Of a DNA stretch of 34,435 nt, positions 11,208 to 27,836 are shown in pieces. Position numbers and translations under genes: made by a program. This stretch comes from Candidatus Sabulitectum sp. (GTDB taxonomy: Bacteria > Fermentibacterota > Fermentibacteria > Fermentibacterales > JCC-6). Location: the NCBI GenBank assembly GCA_023145375.1, contig JAGLDY010000034.1, forward strand, positions 1-34,435. Reading direction: 5' to 3'. The notes under the pieces were generated by a model. The model was given only the letters and a program-made list of their open reading frames with translations. It did not search any database and was not told the origin of the DNA. Positions within the stretch are counted from its first letter, which is position 1; every line of letters begins with the position of its first letter.

Positions 11208-11360
11208 TACCTGTCGGTTTATTGATTCCCCACAGCTTCCGGTTTGGGAATGAAACTTTACTGCCCCTTTTGTGTTACTCCTTTTGTGGTTAGATTCGCA
11301 CTTCGTTTGTTAGTGCAGGATTTTTTATGAAGTTTGTCTACATTAGAAGAAAGGTTAAGT

Positions 11361-13373
11361 ATGACGCTTTTTCTGCAAGTTGCAATGATTCTGATGTCTG
11401 TTCAGGCAGCAGATGTTACATTTACCCTTGACCCTGCCGCGGTTCAGTTCACCGCTTTCCGCGGGGAAGAGGTTGTCTACATACCTGGAGGAGCCTCCCC
11501 GTTTGTAGATGGAGAACCGGGTCTTCCCGGAATGGGTTACTCAATGGTAATTCCACAGGGAACATACCTTGAGAGTGTTGAGGTTGAGGTGCTGTCAACG
11601 GTAGCTCTTCCTGGAATTCACAGGATAGCTCCTGTTCTTTCAGTTGCCTTTGATGAGCAAATTCCAGCAGTTATACCTCATTCCAGTAGTTATACAAGAG
11701 GTGCATTCCCAACGGCGTCCATTTTTGATGTCAACACAGGCAACAAGACCGGATTCAGGGTAGCTTCTTTTGTTTATGTCCCTTTCACATGGGATCCTTC
11801 AACTGGAACCCTTTCTGTTGTAACCAGCGCAGTTCTTACACCGGTAACTGCACCGGCAACAGATGCTCCTCAGCTCAGACTTTCCGACTATCAGGTAAGT
11901 ACAGCCATCTCGGCTCTTCAGTCGGTGGTTCGGAATCCTGAGATGCTTGAAGCCTATGCCCCTGAGATCGTCGGAGGCGTTGATGGTGCTCCCTGGGTTC
12001 TTATCTCAGATGAATCTCACGAGACAACTCTTCAGCCACTTCTTGACCTCAGAGCTACCACTCATGGTTCTCAGTTCGTTTCCACCCAGTGGATCTACGC
12101 GAACTATACCGGCTACGATACACAGGAGCAGATCAGAAACTATCTTATCGATGCTTACGAAAATCAGGGGCTGGTTTACGCCCTGATCGTTGGCGATTTC
12201 GGAGAGACTACAAGAATTTCCAGCCTGAAAATTGGTTCTACAGGTCCCATGAATTCAACTGCCGACCTCTACTACAGTGATCTGGATGGTACCTGGGACG
12301 CGGACAACGACCACAAATACGGTGAGCTTGGCGATGGTCTTGACTACTATTCAGATATCTACACAGGAAGATTCAGTACAAATGTGACCAGTCGTCTCAC
12401 CACAATGATGAACAGAACAGTGGCTTACGAGACCACATCCCCTGCCGGTGACTGGCAGACTACAGCAGCTCTTGCAGGTGCTCTTCTCTGGCCCCCTTAC
12501 TCTGGAGCCAAGGTTTGTGATTCCATTTCAGTAAGAATTCCTTCTTCCTGGACAGAGCACAAGCTGTATGAAACATCAGCGGGTCACCCGAACAATCTGA
12601 TTACTCTGATCAACCAGGGCGTGTCCTACTGTAGCTCCAACGGGCATGGTTACTATGCAGGTATCTACTGGTACTCGAATCCTCCCACAGACCTCATTTC
12701 CGCCGGTAACTACACTGGTCTTACAAACAATGACATGCCTACAGTATTCCACTCCATTGCCTGTCTTTCTGGAAACATCCAGAATGTTGCTTCCATTGCG
12801 GAGAGGCTGATGTTCTGGCCTTCGGGTGGCGGTATTGCAGTAATGTTCAACTCAAATAACGGATGGGGTCAACCGCCCAATTTCGGAGCCAGTGAATGGC
12901 TTGAGCTCTATTTTGCTGAAGTTTTATTTGTGGGAGAGCAGTATGAGATCGGTGTTACCCACTCAATTTCAAAGGATGAGTTCAAGGCAAATGTCAGTAT
13001 CGGCATGCAGACATGGGTTCTTCAGGAGAACAACCTTCTCGGTGACCCTGCACTCAGATTCATTGCGGGTCAGACGGGAATAGAAGAGGGAGAAGGCAAC
13101 CCCGGCGTTGTTTCACCTCTTATCTCTGCTCCCAGTCCTAATCCTGTAAGTGGAACATGTGCTGTGAACTTCACAATGCCTTCCGCCGGAACTGCAACAG
13201 TAGCAGTTTATGACCTTTCCGGCAGGATTGCCGCAACTGTTCATGACGGCCTCCTCAGTGAAGGACAGGGAAGCCTCAGCTTTGATGCCTCCAGCCTTCC
13301 TTCAGGATGTTACACCATTGTAATCAGTTCTCAGACTGGATCAGCTTCCACACAGATGCTGGTTCTCCGCTGA
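11361..13373 (+). CDS. Gingipain-like C25 family cysteine peptidase, copy 1
   Basis: A 670-residue secreted protease. The ATG at 11361 is preferred to an upstream TTG at 11334: it has an AAAGG site and begins the signal peptide (MTLFLQVAMILMSVQAA). About 20-200 is a propeptide-like region, then the C25 catalytic domain with His429 (NGHGYYAG) and Cys468 (SIACLSGN), the order expected of the gingipain His-Cys dyad. The last 80 residues form a sorting-type beta-sandwich (SPNPVSGTCAVNF, VYDLSGR, LPSGCYTIVI), which in FCB bacteria directs export through the type IX system and surface attachment. It is followed by a strong terminator, so it is probably transcribed separately from the near-identical copy 2. 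Confidence 0.9.
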   Translation: MTLFLQVAMILMSVQAADVTFTLDPAAVQFTAFRGEEVVYIPGGASPFVDGEPGLPGMGYSMVIPQGTYLESVEVEVLSTVALPGIHRIAPVLSVAFDEQIPAVIPHSSSYTRGAFPTASIFDVNTGNKTGFRVASFVYVPFTWDPSTGTLSVVTSAVLTPVTAPATDAPQLRLSDYQVSTAISALQSVVRNPEMLEAYAPEIVGGVDGAPWVLISDESHETTLQPLLDLRATTHGSQFVSTQWIYANYTGYDTQEQIRNYLIDAYENQGLVYALIVGDFGETTRISSLKIGSTGPMNSTADLYYSDLDGTWDADNDHKYGELGDGLDYYSDIYTGRFSTNVTSRLTTMMNRTVAYETTSPAGDWQTTAALAGALLWPPYSGAKVCDSISVRIPSSWTEHKLYETSAGHPNNLITLINQGVSYCSSNGHGYYAGIYWYSNPPTDLISAGNYTGLTNNDMPTVFHSIACLSGNIQNVASIAERLMFWPSGGGIAVMFNSNNGWGQPPNFGASEWLELYFAEVLFVGEQYEIGVTHSISKDEFKANVSIGMQTWVLQENNLLGDPALRFIAGQTGIEEGEGNPGVVSPLISAPSPNPVSGTCAVNFTMPSAGTATVAVYDLSGRIAATVHDGLLSEGQGSLSFDASSLPSGCYTIVISSQTGSASTQMLVLR

Positions 13374-13392
13374 GGCACCGTTAATAAGTAAG

Positions 13393-13426
13393 AAAAGGGC
13401 CATCCGGGAAATCGGATGGCCTTTTT
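13393..13426 (+). terminator. Rho-independent terminator after C25 copy 1
   Basis: A 9-bp stem GGCCATCCG / CGGATGGCC (loop GGAAAT) flanked by AAAAG and TTTTT, 20 bases after the stop. A related but altered hairpin follows copy 2, as expected if the duplication included the terminator. Confidence 0.88.
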
Positions 13427-13450
13427 CCGTAGACTGATTTGAGGTTTGAT

Positions 13451-15475
13451 ATGACGCTTTTTCTGCAGGCTGCAATGATTCTGATGTCTGTTCAGGCAGC
13501 AGATGTTACATTTACCCTTGACCCTGCTGCGGTTCAGTTCACCGCCTTCCGCGGGGAAGAGGCTGTCTACATACCTGGAGGATCCTCCCCGTTTGTAGAT
13601 GGAGAACCGGGTCTTCCCGGAATGGGTTACTCAATGGTAATTCCACAGGGAACATACCTTGAGAGTGTTGAGGTCGAGGTGCTGTCAACGGCAGCTCTTC
13701 CTGGAATTCACAGGATAGCTCCTGTTCTTTCAGTTGCTTTCAGTGAGCAGATCCCAGCAGTTATTCCTCATTCCAGTAGTTATATGAGGGGTACATTTCC
13801 AACAGCCTCCATTTTTGATGTCAACACAGGCAACAAGACCGGATTCAGGGTTGCTTCCTTTGTTTATGTCCCTTTCACATGGGACCCTTCAACAGGAACC
13901 CTTTCCGTGGTAACCAGTGCTGTTCTTACACCGGTAACTGCACCGGCAACAGATGCCCCTCAGCTCAGACTTTCCGACTATCAGGTGAGTACAGCCATCT
14001 CGGCTCTTCAGTCGGTGGTTCGGAATCCTGAGATGCTTGAAGCCTATGCCCCAGAGATCGTCGGCGGTGTTGATGGTGCTCCATGGGTACTTATCGCGGA
14101 TGAATCCCACGAGACAACCCTTCAGCCACTTCTGACTCTCAGAGCTACCACTCATGGTTCTGATTTTGTTTCCACCCAGTGGATCTACGCGAACTACACC
14201 GGCTACGATACACCGGAGCAGATTAGAAATTATCTTATCGATGCTTACGAGAATCAGGGTCTTGTATACGCCCTTATCGTTGGTGATTTTGGAGAAACAA
14301 CCCGTGTTTCAGGCCTGAAGATAGGTAGCACAGGCCCGATGAATACAACTGCTGATCTTTACTACAGTGATCTGAATGGAACATGGGACATAGACAACGA
14401 CCACATCTATGGAGAGCTCGGTGATGGTCTTGACTACTACTCAGACATCTATACCGGAAGATTCAGCACAGATGTACCAGCCCGTCTTTCCACCATGGTT
14501 GACAAAACGGTTGCATATGAAACGAACTCCCCTTCGGGTAGCTGGCAGACCACAGCGCTCCTTGCGGGAGCAGGTCTCTGGATCGAAGATCCTCCAGGCT
14601 ACTGGGGATCATTTATCTGTGATTCGATCGACTCCAGAATACCTGAACCCTGGACAGTGCACAAACTGTATGAAGACTATTCCTCACATCCGAACAATCA
14701 GATAGAGCTTTACAACCAGGGCGTTTCTTACAGCAGTCTGAATGGACACGGGGGCTCTGGGGGGGTTTACTGGTATTCTTTTCCCCCTACAGGTATTGTT
14801 ACCAACGCAAACTATTTCGATATGAATAACGATGGAATGCCTGTGGTTTTTCACTCGATGGCTTGCAGTCCCGGTTATCTTCAGAATGTAGCATGTATAG
14901 CTGAAAGACTGATGTTCTGGCACTCAGGTGGTGCTATAGCAGTAATGTTCAATTCACATTATGGGTGGGGCTCCCCACCCAACCTCGGTGCAAGCGAATG
15001 GCTTGAACTGTATTTTGCTGAAGTTCTTTTCGTGGAAGAGCAGTATGAGATCGGTGTTGCCCACTCAATTTCAAAGGATGAGTTCAAAGCAAATATATCC
15101 GTTCCTATGCAAACCTGGGTGCTTCAGGAGAATAACCTTCTCGGCGACCCTGCACTCAGATTCATTGCAGGTCAGACTGGAATAGAAGAGGGAGAGGGCA
15201 ACCCTGGTGTTGTCTCACCTATTCTCTCTGCTCCCAGCCCTAATCCTGTAAGCGGAACATGTGCTGTGAACTTCACAATGCCAGCGGCAGCTACAGCAAC
15301 AGTGGCGGTTTATGACCTTTCCGGCAGAATTGCCGCAACGGTTCATGACGGTCTCCTCAGCGAAGGACAGGGAAGCCTCAGCTTTGATGCTTCCAGCCTT
15401 CCTTCAGGATGCTACACCATTGTTATAAGCTCGCAGACCGGATCAGCTTCCACACAGGTGCTGGTTCTGCGATAA
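13451..15475 (+). CDS. Gingipain-like C25 family cysteine peptidase, copy 2
   Basis: A 674-residue paralogue of the preceding gene. The ATG has a GAGG site 6 bases upstream; an in-frame TTG at 13439 is less likely. The signal peptide, prodomain and C-terminal sorting domain are almost identical to copy 1. The stretch from about residue 350 to 480 differs clearly, including the segment before the catalytic His (LWIEDPPGYWGSFICDSID against LWPPYSGAKVCDSIS). His433 (NGHGGSGG) and Cys472 (SMACSPGY) keep the 39-residue spacing of copy 1, so both copies look active. The pattern suggests a tandem duplication with the specificity region changed and the targeting parts kept uniform. Confidence 0.9.
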   Translation: MTLFLQAAMILMSVQAADVTFTLDPAAVQFTAFRGEEAVYIPGGSSPFVDGEPGLPGMGYSMVIPQGTYLESVEVEVLSTAALPGIHRIAPVLSVAFSEQIPAVIPHSSSYMRGTFPTASIFDVNTGNKTGFRVASFVYVPFTWDPSTGTLSVVTSAVLTPVTAPATDAPQLRLSDYQVSTAISALQSVVRNPEMLEAYAPEIVGGVDGAPWVLIADESHETTLQPLLTLRATTHGSDFVSTQWIYANYTGYDTPEQIRNYLIDAYENQGLVYALIVGDFGETTRVSGLKIGSTGPMNTTADLYYSDLNGTWDIDNDHIYGELGDGLDYYSDIYTGRFSTDVPARLSTMVDKTVAYETNSPSGSWQTTALLAGAGLWIEDPPGYWGSFICDSIDSRIPEPWTVHKLYEDYSSHPNNQIELYNQGVSYSSLNGHGGSGGVYWYSFPPTGIVTNANYFDMNNDGMPVVFHSMACSPGYLQNVACIAERLMFWHSGGAIAVMFNSHYGWGSPPNLGASEWLELYFAEVLFVEEQYEIGVAHSISKDEFKANISVPMQTWVLQENNLLGDPALRFIAGQTGIEEGEGNPGVVSPILSAPSPNPVSGTCAVNFTMPAAATATVAVYDLSGRIAATVHDGLLSEGQGSLSFDASSLPSGCYTIVISSQTGSASTQVLVLR

Positions 15476-19544: not shown

Positions 19545-20152
19545 ATGAAACATTTCATTTTCGTTCTGATGCTAATGACCACAATTCTTGCGGCTTCCTC
19601 TGTTGAGGTGGGATCTTCACAGTTCGGGGCTACCAAACCATTTTGTGCAAATTGAACGAGTTCACTCCGCTATCAGGTGATAGTTCGGGCAAGTGAATTC
19701 TGTGAAGCTATGATGATCAGCTCAATATCTTTTGTTGAGGCGCCCTCTCAGGGATCAGAAGCAACCTTCTATGAATTCTACCTGGATATGGGATACTGCT
19801 CAAACAACGAACTTGGTGCAAATTTCGAAGACAACTACATCGGCGGCTCAAAACAAGAGTATTTGAGAGAACCGGCAATGCAACCTTCTATGCCTTGGAC
19901 CCAACGATCTACTTCGATTCTCCCTTCTTCTTTGATCCGGCCAATGGAAATCTTATCATTGATGTTTCCTGGCCGGATGGAGAAAATGAATTCTACACAT
20001 ACAACTTCGCAACGGCACATAATTCCAGTGTATCAGGGAGCTTTTATGACTCCGAAGGTTACATTTACACGGATATGTCCCACCTTTTCATTGAGGGATT
20101 CTGGTCTTTGGAGCAGACGACATTTGCCGGAATCAAGAGCTCTTTCCTGTAA
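19545..20152 (+). pseudogene. Secreted protein with in-frame TGA at codon 37, copy A (frameshifted)
   Basis: The ATG at 19545 opens a signal peptide (MKHFIFVLMLMTTILAASS) and VEVGSSQFGATKPFCAN, then TGA at 19653 (codon 37). The same frame continues as TSSLRYQVIVRASEF and stays homologous to copy B up to GGSK near 19853. There an A-run of four (19850-19853) is one base short of what copy B predicts; the homology continues in the -1 frame (DPTIYFDSPFFFDPANGN ... FAGIKSSFL) to TAA at 20150. The product would be about 200 residues. The gene is therefore either decayed, mis-assembled at a homopolymer, or needs -1 slippage of tRNA-Lys on A-AAA-C. The TGA is discussed under copy B. Confidence 0.6.
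19658..19700 (+). promoter_or_regulatory. SECIS-like hairpin after the TGA of copy A
   Basis: GAGTTCACT (19658-19666) pairs with AGTGAATTC (19692-19700, one G-U), CCG with CGG, and CTATC with GATAG, closing the loop AGGT (19675-19678). Bulges UU and GCA lie on the 3' side. The apical loop starts 19 nt after the TGA and has G at its second position, within the usual bacterial SECIS layout as I recall it. Copy B has the same apical stem-loop at the same distance. Confidence 0.45.
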
Positions 20153-20229
20153 TCAGTATGTTCTTAAAAGCTCTGTGGCTATCCTGGTCAGGATTGAACT
20201 TTTCTACCTTTATTCTGTATAGAAGAGAG

Positions 20230-20340
20230 AGGTAGCTTTGTCCGGGTGTGTTAAACGAGGGGCTACCTGTTGTGAGAGGGATTTCGTATAGTTTCGTGAA
20301 ATAGATAGGGCGAGAGTCTCCTGTCTAAAGGCTCGTTTTT
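20230..20340 (+). promoter_or_regulatory. Possible structured leader of copy B
   Basis: A 7-bp stem AGGTAGC / GCTACCT (20230-20236 with 20262-20268) is followed by two mutually exclusive stems: GATAGG / CCTGTC (20304-20309 with 20320-20325), or CGAG...CCT / AGGCTCG (20311-20335) running into TTTTT (20336-20340). That is the form of an antiterminator/terminator choice, ending 14 bases before the ATG of copy B. Copy A has no similar leader. No known riboswitch was recognised. Confidence 0.35.
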
Positions 20341-20354
20341 GAAAGGACAGTTAG

Positions 20355-20957
20355 ATGAAAACCTCAATGCTGTTACTTCTGCTGGCAGTTCCCATGCTTC
20401 TTGCTGCCACGGTGGAAGTCGGTTCCGCTCAATTTGCAAACACTAAACCGTTCTGCGGCAATTGAACAGCCTCTCTACGCTATCAGGTGATAGTACAGGC
20501 AAGTGAGTTTTCCCAGCCTATGTCAATTACCTCCATTACTTTTAACCCATCTCCACCCGGAACAGAAGTAACATTTTTTGAGTACTATGTGGACCTTGGA
20601 TACTGTTCCAGTAATGAGCTGGGGGCAATTTATGAGAGCAACTATGTCAGTGGTTCCAAGACAAGGGTTTTTGAAAAAACAAGCAATGTGACTTTTTTCG
20701 CCGCTGACCCCACCATCTATTTCGATACTCCTTTCGTCTTTGATCCTGCTAATGGAAATCTCATAATCGAGATCGCATGGCCAGATGGTGAAGATGAAAT
20801 TTACACATACAGCTCAGGTACATCCGGTATTACCTGTATTAACGGCGACTACAATTCTCCAATAGGGGATGAGTTCTCAGACATGTCACACATGTTCATC
20901 AATGGCGATTTGGCTCTTGAACAGATGACATTTGCTGGAATAAAAGCATCATTCTAG
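20355..20957 (+). CDS. Secreted protein with in-frame TGA at codon 37, copy B (possible selenoprotein)
   Basis: AAAGGA precedes the ATG at 20355. The frame reads a signal peptide (MKTSMLLLLLAVPMLLAAT), VEVGSAQFANTKPFCGN, TGA at 20463 (codon 37), then TASLRYQVIVQASEF and on without interruption to TAG at 20955: 200 codons in all, counting the TGA. Read through, codons 34-37 form Cys-Gly-Asn-X, a CxxU redox-type motif if X is selenocysteine. The rest looks like an extracellular beta-sandwich (FFEYYVDLGYCSSNELGA, DPANGNLIIEIAWPDGEDE). Copy A has the same TGA at the same codon, and downstream the two proteins are conserved despite many synonymous differences, so translation past the TGA appears to be under selection. 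Alternatives are Trp readthrough, an inherited nonsense mutation, or restart at GTG 20487, which would lack a signal peptide. Confidence 0.6.
20469..20500 (+). promoter_or_regulatory. SECIS-like hairpin after the TGA of copy B
   Basis: CTATC / GATAG (20480-20484 with 20489-20493) closes the loop AGGT, with an outer GCCT / AGGC (20469-20472 with 20497-20500). The 17 bases CGCTATCAGGTGATAGT are identical in both copies including all third codon positions, while flanking synonymous sites differ. The apical loop starts 19 nt after the TGA, as in copy A. Confidence 0.45.
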
Positions 20958-20990: not shown

Positions 20991-22841
20991 GTGAAGTATC
21001 TGGTGATCCTCTTCTTTTTAGTACCTGCACTCTATGGACAGTGTCCTCTTGGTTTTGCACCAGACGAGGCCTGTGGCGCTGATGCTCCTTCCTGTGCATT
21101 GTTTACCGACAGCAATGGAGACAACCTCTGTGATAATGCGGCACTTCCGGGACAATCCACAGAGGAGGAACCGGAAGAGGCAGTTGAGCCTGAGCTGGAA
21201 CCAGAAGAACCTGAGATCTTTGAGGAAGCAGCAGCAGAGGTAGTAGTAGAGGAGGAGGTCGTTATCGATCCTTTCTGCCCCCTCGACCTATCCCCTCAGG
21301 ATGCCTGTTCTCAGGAAAACGCCCGGTGTACTTTCTATACCGATTCCAATGGAGACAACTTATGCGATAACGCCGGCTCTCAGCCGGCTCCGTCCGCAGA
21401 GGAAATAGTTGAGGAGCCAGAGGTTGAGGAAGAGCAGCCTGAACCCCAAATAGATCCGGTAGAAGAGGAAATAGTTGAGGAACCGGAGGTTGAGGAAGAG
21501 GTTTCTCCTGAAACAGACACTGTGGAAGTTCTGCATACTGACTGCCCTCTTGGGTTCACCGTAGAGGAAGCCTGTCAATCGGACGACCCCTTATGTACTC
21601 TTTTCAGGGACCTGGACGAGAACCAGATCTGCGATAACGGAATTGTGACAGCTGTGGAAGACACTTCTAATGGTGATGAGGTAAGTACATCGCATAGAGA
21701 GGGATGTTGTCCTTTTGGATACACCACAGATCAAGCATGCACCTCCGAGAACGCCGAATGCGCGTGCTATCTGGACTGGGATGAGAACCAGATCTGCGAT
21801 AACGGAATTGTGACAGCTGTGGAAGACACTTCTAATGGTGATGAGGCAAGTACATCGCATAGAGAGAGATGTTGTCCTTTTGGATACACCACAGATCAAG
21901 CATGCACCTTCGAGAACGCCGAATGCGCGTGCTATCTGGACTTGGATGAGAATGGTTTCTGCGATAACCCGGCACAGGGAGGGGATGCTACAGAATACCC
22001 TGCCGTTGTCGGGTGTCCGATGGGGCTTCCACCGGTAGCTGCATGTTCGGATTCCCTTGCCCTTTGCCCCCACTGGTACGGTGTCAGCTCACACACCACA
22101 TGTTCAAATCCCTCCGGTGGACAACGGCGGATCAACATCATTCTCATAACACTGGGTGTTCTTCTTCCCATATCAACATGGCTGTCCAGAAGATTCTATG
22201 GCAGAAGGATGAAAGACAGACTGAGGCGAAATACTGCCCATCATATAGTCAGGGGTGTTTCACTGATGATACTGGGCTTCGGTGTTCAGGGGTGTTTCTG
22301 TCCTCTGGGAACATTTCAATATGCGTTTACAGCTGGAGGCCTTGCATTCCTTGGTCTGACAGGAGTGCTTATCTTTGCGCTTCCCCTTGTGTTCAGCGCT
22401 TTCTTTGGAAGAGTTTTCTGTGGCTGGGTATGTCCGTTCGGAGCCCTGCAGGAATTCCTTTACCGTATTCATGTTCCAGGCAGATTCTCGCCTTCAGGTA
22501 AAGTTCATCACAGGCTGAAGCACCTGAGTAAGGTTATTCTCTTCGCCCTGGTTGCCGCAATACTCTTGAACAGGTTTGGTGTTATTTCTCTCCAGTGGCC
22601 TGCACCTTTTTGCAATATTGATCCTTTCCACACCATCTTCACCCTCTTTCTTTCCGGAAGCCTTGTGGTAGCAGGAGTTACCATTATTCTGGCCATCTTC
22701 ATCAGAAGATTCTTCTGTAAGTACCTCTGTTTTTATGGTGCAGCCCAGGCTATTATGGCAAAGCTGACACTCTGGAACAGGATAAAAGGCATCAAGAGAG
22801 CTGAGCCGGAGCTGGATTCTGACGAAGAATTTGATAAATAG
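20991..22841 (+). CDS. NapH-like membrane 4Fe-4S protein with exported Cys-rich repeat domain
   Basis: A 616-residue protein with a GTG start (AGGGAG site). After a signal sequence (MKYLVILFFLVPALYG) come five modules of the form CPxGxxxxxAC-x7-C-x4-DxxxNxxCDN (near 17, 100, 180, 240 and 295), plus a sixth degenerate one. They are separated by very acidic Glu/Pro linkers. The DSNGDNLCDN segments resemble calcium-binding loops; similar CxxG...DxDxDGxCD modules occur in other membrane 4Fe-4S proteins. From about 380 there are five or so membrane helices with GCFCPLGTFQYAF, Cys477-x3-Cys481-Pro (FCGWVCPFGALQEF) and Cys576-x3-Cys580 (FCKYLCFYGA), the NapH/CcoG-type cluster motifs. It probably carries electrons at the inner membrane. 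It starts 33 bases after copy B and may share its transcript. Confidence 0.85.
   Translation: MKYLVILFFLVPALYGQCPLGFAPDEACGADAPSCALFTDSNGDNLCDNAALPGQSTEEEPEEAVEPELEPEEPEIFEEAAAEVVVEEEVVIDPFCPLDLSPQDACSQENARCTFYTDSNGDNLCDNAGSQPAPSAEEIVEEPEVEEEQPEPQIDPVEEEIVEEPEVEEEVSPETDTVEVLHTDCPLGFTVEEACQSDDPLCTLFRDLDENQICDNGIVTAVEDTSNGDEVSTSHREGCCPFGYTTDQACTSENAECACYLDWDENQICDNGIVTAVEDTSNGDEASTSHRERCCPFGYTTDQACTFENAECACYLDLDENGFCDNPAQGGDATEYPAVVGCPMGLPPVAACSDSLALCPHWYGVSSHTTCSNPSGGQRRINIILITLGVLLPISTWLSRRFYGRRMKDRLRRNTAHHIVRGVSLMILGFGVQGCFCPLGTFQYAFTAGGLAFLGLTGVLIFALPLVFSAFFGRVFCGWVCPFGALQEFLYRIHVPGRFSPSGKVHHRLKHLSKVILFALVAAILLNRFGVISLQWPAPFCNIDPFHTIFTLFLSGSLVVAGVTIILAIFIRRFFCKYLCFYGAAQAIMAKLTLWNRIKGIKRAEPELDSDEEFDK
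21618..21947 (+). repeat. Two near-identical 165-bp tandem units inside the NapH-like gene
   Basis: Units 21618-21782 and 21783-21947 differ at only a few positions and encode 55 residues each (ENQICDNGIVTAVEDTSNGD ... CCPFGYTTDQAC). A third partial unit begins at 21948. Being in frame and nearly identical, they point to recent unequal recombination that changed module number. A shorter direct repeat (GAGGAAATAGTTGAGG) in the acidic linker near 21400 and 21465 shows the same tendency. Confidence 0.9.
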
Positions 22842-26693: not shown

Positions 26694-27836
26694 CTAATTC
26701 TGATAGGCTGGACAGGTGTTGCAATCTGCTGATGTGGTGCAGCCTGTCTCACTTGTTAAAAGAAAAGTAAATCCGGAATCAGGGTCACACCTGAAACTGT
26801 ATCTGGCCAGGTATTGATAGACAATACCGGTCCTCTCTAAGTCATAAGGTTCGTATTCGATGGCGAACAGCCTGAATCGTCTGGTTTCTGCAAGGGCATT
26901 TGCATCGACCTGCCACTGGGAAAGCTCTACCTCAGAGCGGAAGTCCATCCACCAGGGAGCAATAACACCCGCCAGCTCCGGAATGGACTCCAGTGCGACA
27001 TCCCAGTCTGTTGTGTTTGACTGTACCAGTACGATCTCGGGGCCTTCTGCCCCCTGCAGATCGTTGTACATATCAACACCTCGATCTCCATTGACTTCAG
27101 GGAAGGTCAGAATGTAGAGAGTATCTTCATTCAGAGCATTGTAGATATTTACGGGGCCACTATTTTCTGTATGGTCATCATGATCATCATCATGCATATC
27201 AATGATCACATCACCTGACTGGAAGAAATATCCCGCCAGCCCTCTTATCCCCATGATGCCAAAATACACTGCAACAAAGATAGCTGCGTACTTTGCAATC
27301 ACATTCAACCACTTCTTTTTACTGAAGAGCCCCACTATGGCAAATGGAAGCATGTACACCGTTGTGCCCAGGAAGAAACCGGTGAACAGCATTGCTCCAT
27401 TCAGAGGACCGCTTGCGTCAAATGCGCTGGTGAGAGCAATAAGGAAAGCAGGACATATGGAGAATCCAGTGAGCATCCCGAGAAGTATCGGGCTCTTTGT
27501 CAGTTTCATCCATTTTGGGATGTTACAGCCATTGCATGTTTTGTTTACTCTGACAACGGAGATGATCATGTACACTGAAAAAAGAATGTAGCCGGAGAAA
27601 GTAAAAGGAATCCTGATAGAAGATGGAATGCTGCCTCCCAGAAGACCCATGATGGCTCCAAAGGCTGCATAAGAGACAAATCTTCCAAGATTCAACATGA
27701 GAATTGTTACCAGAGATTGTCTGCTGGTCCTCCGTTCACTTAGAAGATAAGTAAGATATATGGGGCCACAGGAAGCCAGACATGAAATGCCGGTTGCCAG
27801 GCCAAGTCCGGTTCCCTCTGCCAGTCCAGTGAACAT
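26694..27836 (-). CDS. DsbD/TauE-SafE-like membrane protein with periplasmic C-terminal domain
   Basis: A 380-residue protein. About six helices fill residues 5-205; the first has GISCLASCGPIYLTYLLS, and a later one GMLTGFSICPAFLIALTSAF, the internal repeat and Cys pattern of the DsbD-2/cytochrome c biogenesis transmembrane group. This group moves reducing equivalents or metal/sulfur species across the inner membrane. A loop rich in Asp and His (DMHDDDHDDH) could bind metal. About 150 extracytoplasmic residues follow, ending with CTTSADCNTCPAYQN. I do not recognise that domain. AGGAGGGG precedes the ATG. Its place between the exported ferredoxin operon and the CitDE gene suggests a redox or maturation role for the ferredoxins, which is inference. 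Confidence 0.78.
   Translation of the reverse strand: MFTGLAEGTGLGLATGISCLASCGPIYLTYLLSERRTSRQSLVTILMLNLGRFVSYAAFGAIMGLLGGSIPSSIRIPFTFSGYILFSVYMIISVVRVNKTCNGCNIPKWMKLTKSPILLGMLTGFSICPAFLIALTSAFDASGPLNGAMLFTGFFLGTTVYMLPFAIVGLFSKKKWLNVIAKYAAIFVAVYFGIMGIRGLAGYFFQSGDVIIDMHDDDHDDHTENSGPVNIYNALNEDTLYILTFPEVNGDRGVDMYNDLQGAEGPEIVLVQSNTTDWDVALESIPELAGVIAPWWMDFRSEVELSQWQVDANALAETRRFRLFAIEYEPYDLERTGIVYQYLARYSFRCDPDSGFTFLLTSETGCTTSADCNTCPAYQN

Follow-up and report, generated by a model that had tools for sequence, protein, structure and literature searches.

The formate dehydrogenase FdhF of Escherichia coli is the type case of SelB/bSECIS recoding. The published bSECIS model calls for a loop of 3-9 nt, a stem of 4-16 bp, a TGA-to-loop distance of 16-37 nt, and a free energy of -7.5 kcal/mol or lower (PMC13188914), and most characterized selenoproteins have a thioredoxin-like fold (PMC13188914). 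The prokaryotic selenoprotein families tabulated there include a TonB-dependent receptor of the FCYXU motif type, NF049945 (PMC13188914, Table 1). Going by its family name, NF049945 is an envelope protein, and TonB-dependent receptors are outer-membrane barrels. An unnamed domain with the pattern IGTGT..PF..YY..R(S/T)Q.LY..sEl, found mostly in large proteins of other bacterial lineages, is related by profile to the family described here.

The window, meaning the whole 34,435-nt stretch of Candidatus Sabulitectum DNA that was analyzed, carries two tandem genes in which an in-frame TGA is very likely decoded as selenocysteine (Sec) and which would accordingly be selenoprotein genes, an inference from sequence made without protein or mass data. 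Like known SelB/bSECIS selenoproteins, they combine an in-frame TGA, a G-containing loop 19-22 nt downstream, a genome encoding selA, selB, selD, and tRNA-Sec, and homologs with Cys in place of Sec. Unlike FdhF-type cases, they belong to another protein family with another fold, and the hairpin sequence is strongly conserved across both the family and the order. NF049945 shares the Cys-x-x-Sec motif after Phe, but none of the 59 members scanned matched it in NCBIfam, and the family is a small predicted beta-sandwich rather than a barrel. The recoding mechanism is an ordinary one, and the family, its fold, and its lineage-wide spread appear to be new.

Both genes lie on the forward strand. Copy 2 (20355-20957) is intact, encoding 200 amino acids with a hydrophobic, signal-like N-terminus and the motif FCGNU, and its frame stays open up to the TAG stop at 20955-20957. 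Copy 1 begins at 19545 with a similar signal-like N-terminus, the motif FCANU, and the start of the beta-sandwich domain; this first part, which contains a single in-frame TGA, runs to 19865. In both copies the TGA is codon 37, directly after FCAN in copy 1 (19653-19655, in frame from the ATG at 19545) and FCGN in copy 2 (20463-20465, in frame from the ATG at 20355), as had been claimed in an earlier reading of the letters without database searches (hereafter the sequence-only reading). That reading had also described the copies as aligning without gaps, which is true of the first ~100 codons only; it missed a break in copy 1, whose frame is lost near 19850. The in-frame match to copy 2 ends at 19865 and resumes in a second frame from 19847 to 20146, within a remainder (19847-20152) that is 60% identical to copy 2. 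Copy 1 is therefore damaged or misassembled. Relatives with both tandem copies intact exist, for example at L062, L063, L064, L067, and L068. A split similar to that of copy 1 was observed at L158, in a genome (G011) of the same genus as the window. The further claim that TGA is an ordinary stop in neighboring genes held: among the 22 long open reading frames listed in the window, 8 terminate with TGA, which has therefore not been turned into a general sense codon. Another 17 TGA-interrupted frames listed in the window yielded no candidate when judged by position and sequence only, most of them lying opposite or beside long open reading frames.

The machinery for Sec incorporation was found by computation in the window's genome, an assembly of 2.6 Mb in 145 contigs that is 92% complete (G000). 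It has a single tRNA-Sec above the Rfam cut-off (70.4 bits, C106:57-149), which ARAGORN calls tRNA-SeC with anticodon TCA, and selA (501 bits) adjoins selB (308 bits) on contig C99. The genome also has selD twice (343 and 313 bits), with one in-frame TGA in each copy. These genes, L018 (G000:C55:37145-38065) and L019 (G000:C56:6932-7855), are probably selenoprotein genes themselves. Across the order, selA was found in 38 of 42 genomes, above the curated cut-off in 35 and as fragments in the other three. The four genomes without it are 61-77% complete, and three of them (G030, G035, and G041) have family members.

The residue at the TGA position was compared in 120 regions fetched around family matches, a sample biased toward the closer kin of copy 2. 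Together with the window these gave 142 domain matches, of which 138 span the motif and four are fragments. TGA occupies the motif position in 125 members and Cys in the remaining 13 (TGC in 10 and TGT in three); neither Trp nor any other residue occurs there in the 138. Cys-x-x-Sec is the main form of the motif, with variants such as CHU and GCU that place the Cys at other distances, and among the 120 TGA members with 150 residues or more, two have no nearby Cys. Elsewhere in the aligned domain, TGA occurs only at the end of L161 and in L178 (G000:C24:104959-105894), a broken member whose domain carries both an additional TGA and a TAA. A quick tree was built without the motif and hairpin columns; it has several long branches, and support is good for 48 of its 131 inner branches. 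On this tree the Cys state requires three changes, only one of which is forced by well-supported branches. The exchange of TGA and Cys is shown by computation, and the insertion of Sec at the TGA remains inferred.

A conserved hairpin lies just downstream of the TGA, its stem starting 13 or 16 nt and its loop 19 or 22 nt 3′ of that codon. It consists of 6 bp and a 4-nt loop, usually AGGT, as in both copies in the window, at 19669-19684 in copy 1 (covariance model R1, E 8.3e-7) and 20479-20494 in copy 2 (E 1.3e-8). The full set of six pairs forms in 121 of the 125 TGA members, five pairs form in three, and three in one, whereas the 13 Cys members keep only two to four of the six. Across 118 different sequences, paired cells make up 99.2% of the total, versus 91.8% after shuffling and 90.0% at most in slid controls, and both sides of a pair have changed in 58 cells versus 18.3 in shuffled data. 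The pairing also couples codons. In 121 of 122 cases, the third base of a Tyr, His, or Cys codon agrees with the opening base of an Ile, Val, or Met codon located three codons further along. The same T-A/C-G agreement at equivalent codon pairs elsewhere in these genes is weaker yet significant (103/155, Fisher p 5e-6), so relatedness inflates such tests, and it may be what produces this background coupling. On the tree, the coupled pair switched nine times; counting well-supported branches only, four joint switches, no opposite ones, and two without a difference remained (sign test p 0.125). When R1 was run against the whole 2.6-Mb genome, with 150 of 472 first-look candidates scored, all five matches at E<1 were family members, and the next match had an E value of 9.9. 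The scan missed the broken member on contig C24.

Judged by the published bSECIS criteria (PMC13188914), the family hairpin satisfies the limits on loop, stem, and TGA-to-loop distance. A G within the first two loop positions is present in all 125 TGA members and all 13 Cys members, a criterion that does not discriminate, since a Gln codon overlaps the loop in almost every member. The -7.5 kcal/mol limit is reached by 102 of the 125 TGA members and two of the 13 Cys members. In the window, the isolated hairpin of copy 1 falls within this limit (-8.4 kcal/mol) and that of copy 2 outside it (-4.8 kcal/mol). In copy 1 the 50 nt from the TGA outperformed their shuffles in folding (z -2.9), and in copy 2 they did not (z -0.07). 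Folding of a single sequence was rejected as proof of the hairpin for copy 2, which folds no better than its shuffles, and the case for the hairpin therefore rests on comparison rather than on single-sequence energy. The family offers one SECIS element that can be compared across more than 100 genes, alongside Cys members that lack the hairpin.

The coding sequence 3′ of the TGA is under purifying selection. Past the TGA, 40 of 64 aligned residues are identical between the two copies, with synonymous differences near saturation (pS 0.84) and nonsynonymous differences few (pN 0.20). Between copy 2 and its nearest relative, L059, dN/dS was 0.11 after the TGA (162 codons) and 0.17 before it (36 codons). 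The sequence-only reading had inferred translation past the TGA since the copies diverged, and the selection after the TGA supports this. Its proposal of either Sec insertion or programmed readthrough is supported, with the evidence favoring Sec: the Sec genes and the tRNA with a TCA anticodon that it suggested looking for are all present, homologs without TGA have Cys and never Trp at codon 37, the SECIS-like hairpin is conserved at the locus and lost in Cys members, and dN/dS past the TGA is low. What goes beyond its description is the extent of the family, its Cys branch, the genes that accompany it, and the broken frame of copy 1.

The family is concentrated in a single little-studied order, Fermentibacterales, to which the window belongs. 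With copy 2 as the query, 40 of 99 genomes were matched, comprising 40 of the 42 in the order and none of the 57 outside it, and profile A2 matched 41 of the 42, with 193 stretches in total and 0 to 9 per genome; broken genes are counted more than once among these stretches, and 17 listed rows have no TGA. A DNA pattern combining motif and hairpin found 49 stretches in genome_contigs, all with titles naming Fermentibacteria, Fermentibacterales, Fermentibacteraceae, Hyd24-12, Aegiribacteria, or Sabulitectum. Protein P0001, used as a single query against the same collection, found no relatives. When the set was widened to 385 genomes, 343 of them outside the order, 13 of these outside genomes were matched, with at most eight candidates scored per genome. 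In twelve of these 13 the unnamed domain occurs, within frames whose lengths span 234 to 4,155 residues (mostly above 600), and it differs from the family in having no internal TGA. No Cys-x-x-Cys/Sec motif was seen in the displayed loops of this domain, where one lone Cys occurs and some matches begin past the loop. The remaining genome, G161, is the only one of the 13 with a TGA-bearing member (L244, a 222-residue frame with the motif CGGU and one TGA), which has a possible hairpin different from that of the family and could reflect either gene transfer or an independent gain. selA is present in G161, and it is above the cut-off in six of the 12 outside genomes with the TGA-free domain, so the absence of TGA there is not simply a matter of missing machinery. 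The family is probably a branch of a wider domain family, of which the Sec form appears to be characteristic of the Fermentibacterales lineage.

Comparison with known families gave no name for the protein. Scans of 59 members against Pfam and NCBIfam returned nothing significant (best E 0.048 and 0.04), and PDB sequences had no match to the family profile at E values up to 10. No matching entry was found in a table from 2026 listing 119 families of prokaryotic selenoproteins (PMC13188914, Table 1), a comparison made via NCBIfam and Pfam in which families lacking a model there were not compared individually. Literature searched at the listing level showed no study of Fermentibacterota selenoproteins. 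The family seems to have gone unlisted, the probable reason being that gene callers end the gene at the TGA, and it gives a handle on the physiology of Fermentibacterota, on which few papers were found. An AF2 model of copy 2 built with 56 sequences is almost all strand (pLDDT 91.3, pTM 0.85) and places the motif in a confidently modeled loop that separates strands 27-29 and 41-47. The best solved neighbors in Foldseek include PHR domains, carbohydrate-binding modules, viral capsids, and phage baseplate parts, at TM-scores of no more than 0.45 by query length (50 rows shown). The predicted fold is not thioredoxin-like, the model being nearly all beta and its best Foldseek matches being beta-sandwich or jelly-roll proteins. 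Export of the protein is likely, as inferred from the hydrophobic N-terminus without a signal prediction. Selenium chemistry would in that case be placed in a probably exported beta-sandwich and not in the usual thioredoxin-like fold.

A membrane polyferredoxin is encoded on the same strand 33 nt after copy 2 (20991-22841), with N-terminal Cys-rich modules and a C-terminus matching PF12801 Fer4_5 (E 2e-18) that is NosR/NapH-like but below the NCBIfam cut-offs. The Cys-rich modules contain repeats resembling CP.G....AC.......D.....CDN, for which no Pfam name was found. The gene is likely to form one operon with copy 2 and to encode its electron partner, although both points are inferred. Neighbor counts, which are computational results, treat tandem copies singly, with duplicate loci (for example L197/L298 and L216/L293) merged. 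For the polyferredoxin, the count took in distinct members that reach 150 residues or more and have no less than 1,500 nt of sequence downstream. A polyferredoxin homolog occurs within the next three same-strand open reading frames in 22 of 56 TGA members, spanning several genera, and in none of the 11 others, one of which (L193) is apparently cut before the motif. Cys members have a different partner: a CxxC thioredoxin/Omp28-like protein, with CGPC in eight of nine cases, is encoded directly upstream of nine of the 13 and nearby in 11, compared with none of the 55 TGA members with room upstream. Three of these proteins were scanned, and two gave weak Omp28 matches below the Pfam cut-off, one of them with a weak thioredoxin match as well. 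Both types of partner suggest redox work outside the cytoplasm, an inference from gene order.

In the proposed mechanism, SelB and Sec-tRNA(UCA) would recognize the short hairpin, with its stem 13 nt and apical loop 19 nt past the TGA, and Sec would be placed at codon 37 of a beta-sandwich protein that is probably exported and contains a Cys-x-x-Sec loop. The most likely role of this protein would be that of an extracytoplasmic thiol/selenol redox protein, and in the window's subfamily electrons may arrive via the NapH/NosR-like polyferredoxin encoded just downstream. Both the redox role and the identity of the redox partner are inferred. The rival that survives best accepts Sec and disputes the role, holding that the CxxU loop binds a metal, forms a structural selenenylsulfide, or captures a substrate at the cell surface, without electron transfer from the polyferredoxin. 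In its favor, the Foldseek neighbors include ligand- and carbohydrate-binding beta-sandwiches, the placement of the Cys varies (CxxU, CHU, GCU) and two of 120 members lack a near one, and the polyferredoxin neighbor is missing in 34 of 56 distinct TGA members with room. Against it, the other 22 retain that neighbor across several genera, and the CxxC thioredoxin/Omp28-like protein immediately precedes nine of the 13 Cys forms; both partners look like redox proteins. The balance tips modestly against this rival, which remains a serious contender.

Programmed readthrough inserting another amino acid, such as Trp, is a much poorer candidate and very improbable. It would equally account for a frame that continues under selection, and sequence data cannot name the inserted residue. 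However, TGA is exchanged for Cys and never for Trp, the genome contains the Sec machinery, a SECIS-like hairpin accompanies TGA and is lost with Cys, and TGA remains an ordinary stop for 8 of the 22 listed long open reading frames. Weakest of all is the suggestion that these are tandem pseudogenes or assembly errors in which the TGA truly terminates or is a mistake, which could cite the frame break in copy 1 and the metagenomic origin of the related public assemblies but is practically eliminated by the recurrence of the TGA in 125 family members from many genomes (an argument that covers the TGA only and not the frame break), by the dN/dS of 0.11 after the TGA, and by a copy 2 that is open to its end.

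Within the preferred reading of Sec insertion, a bolder version is possible though less likely than not, in which the lineage-wide cell-surface selenoproteins, built on a ligand-binding type of beta-sandwich, would act as an outward electron relay, passing electrons from the polyferredoxin through CxxU proteins to extracellular sulfur compounds or other partners. The hairpin would then be a SECIS integral to the domain and would have spread as the genes duplicated. Two other features of the window were observed. A DsbD_2 transmembrane protein is encoded at 26694-27836, about 6 kb from the selenoprotein pair, and may be a further thiol-redox part. At 11334-15475, a tandem pair of genes encodes Peptidase_C25 proteins that bear Por secretion tails, hinting at a possible T9SS-like export system.
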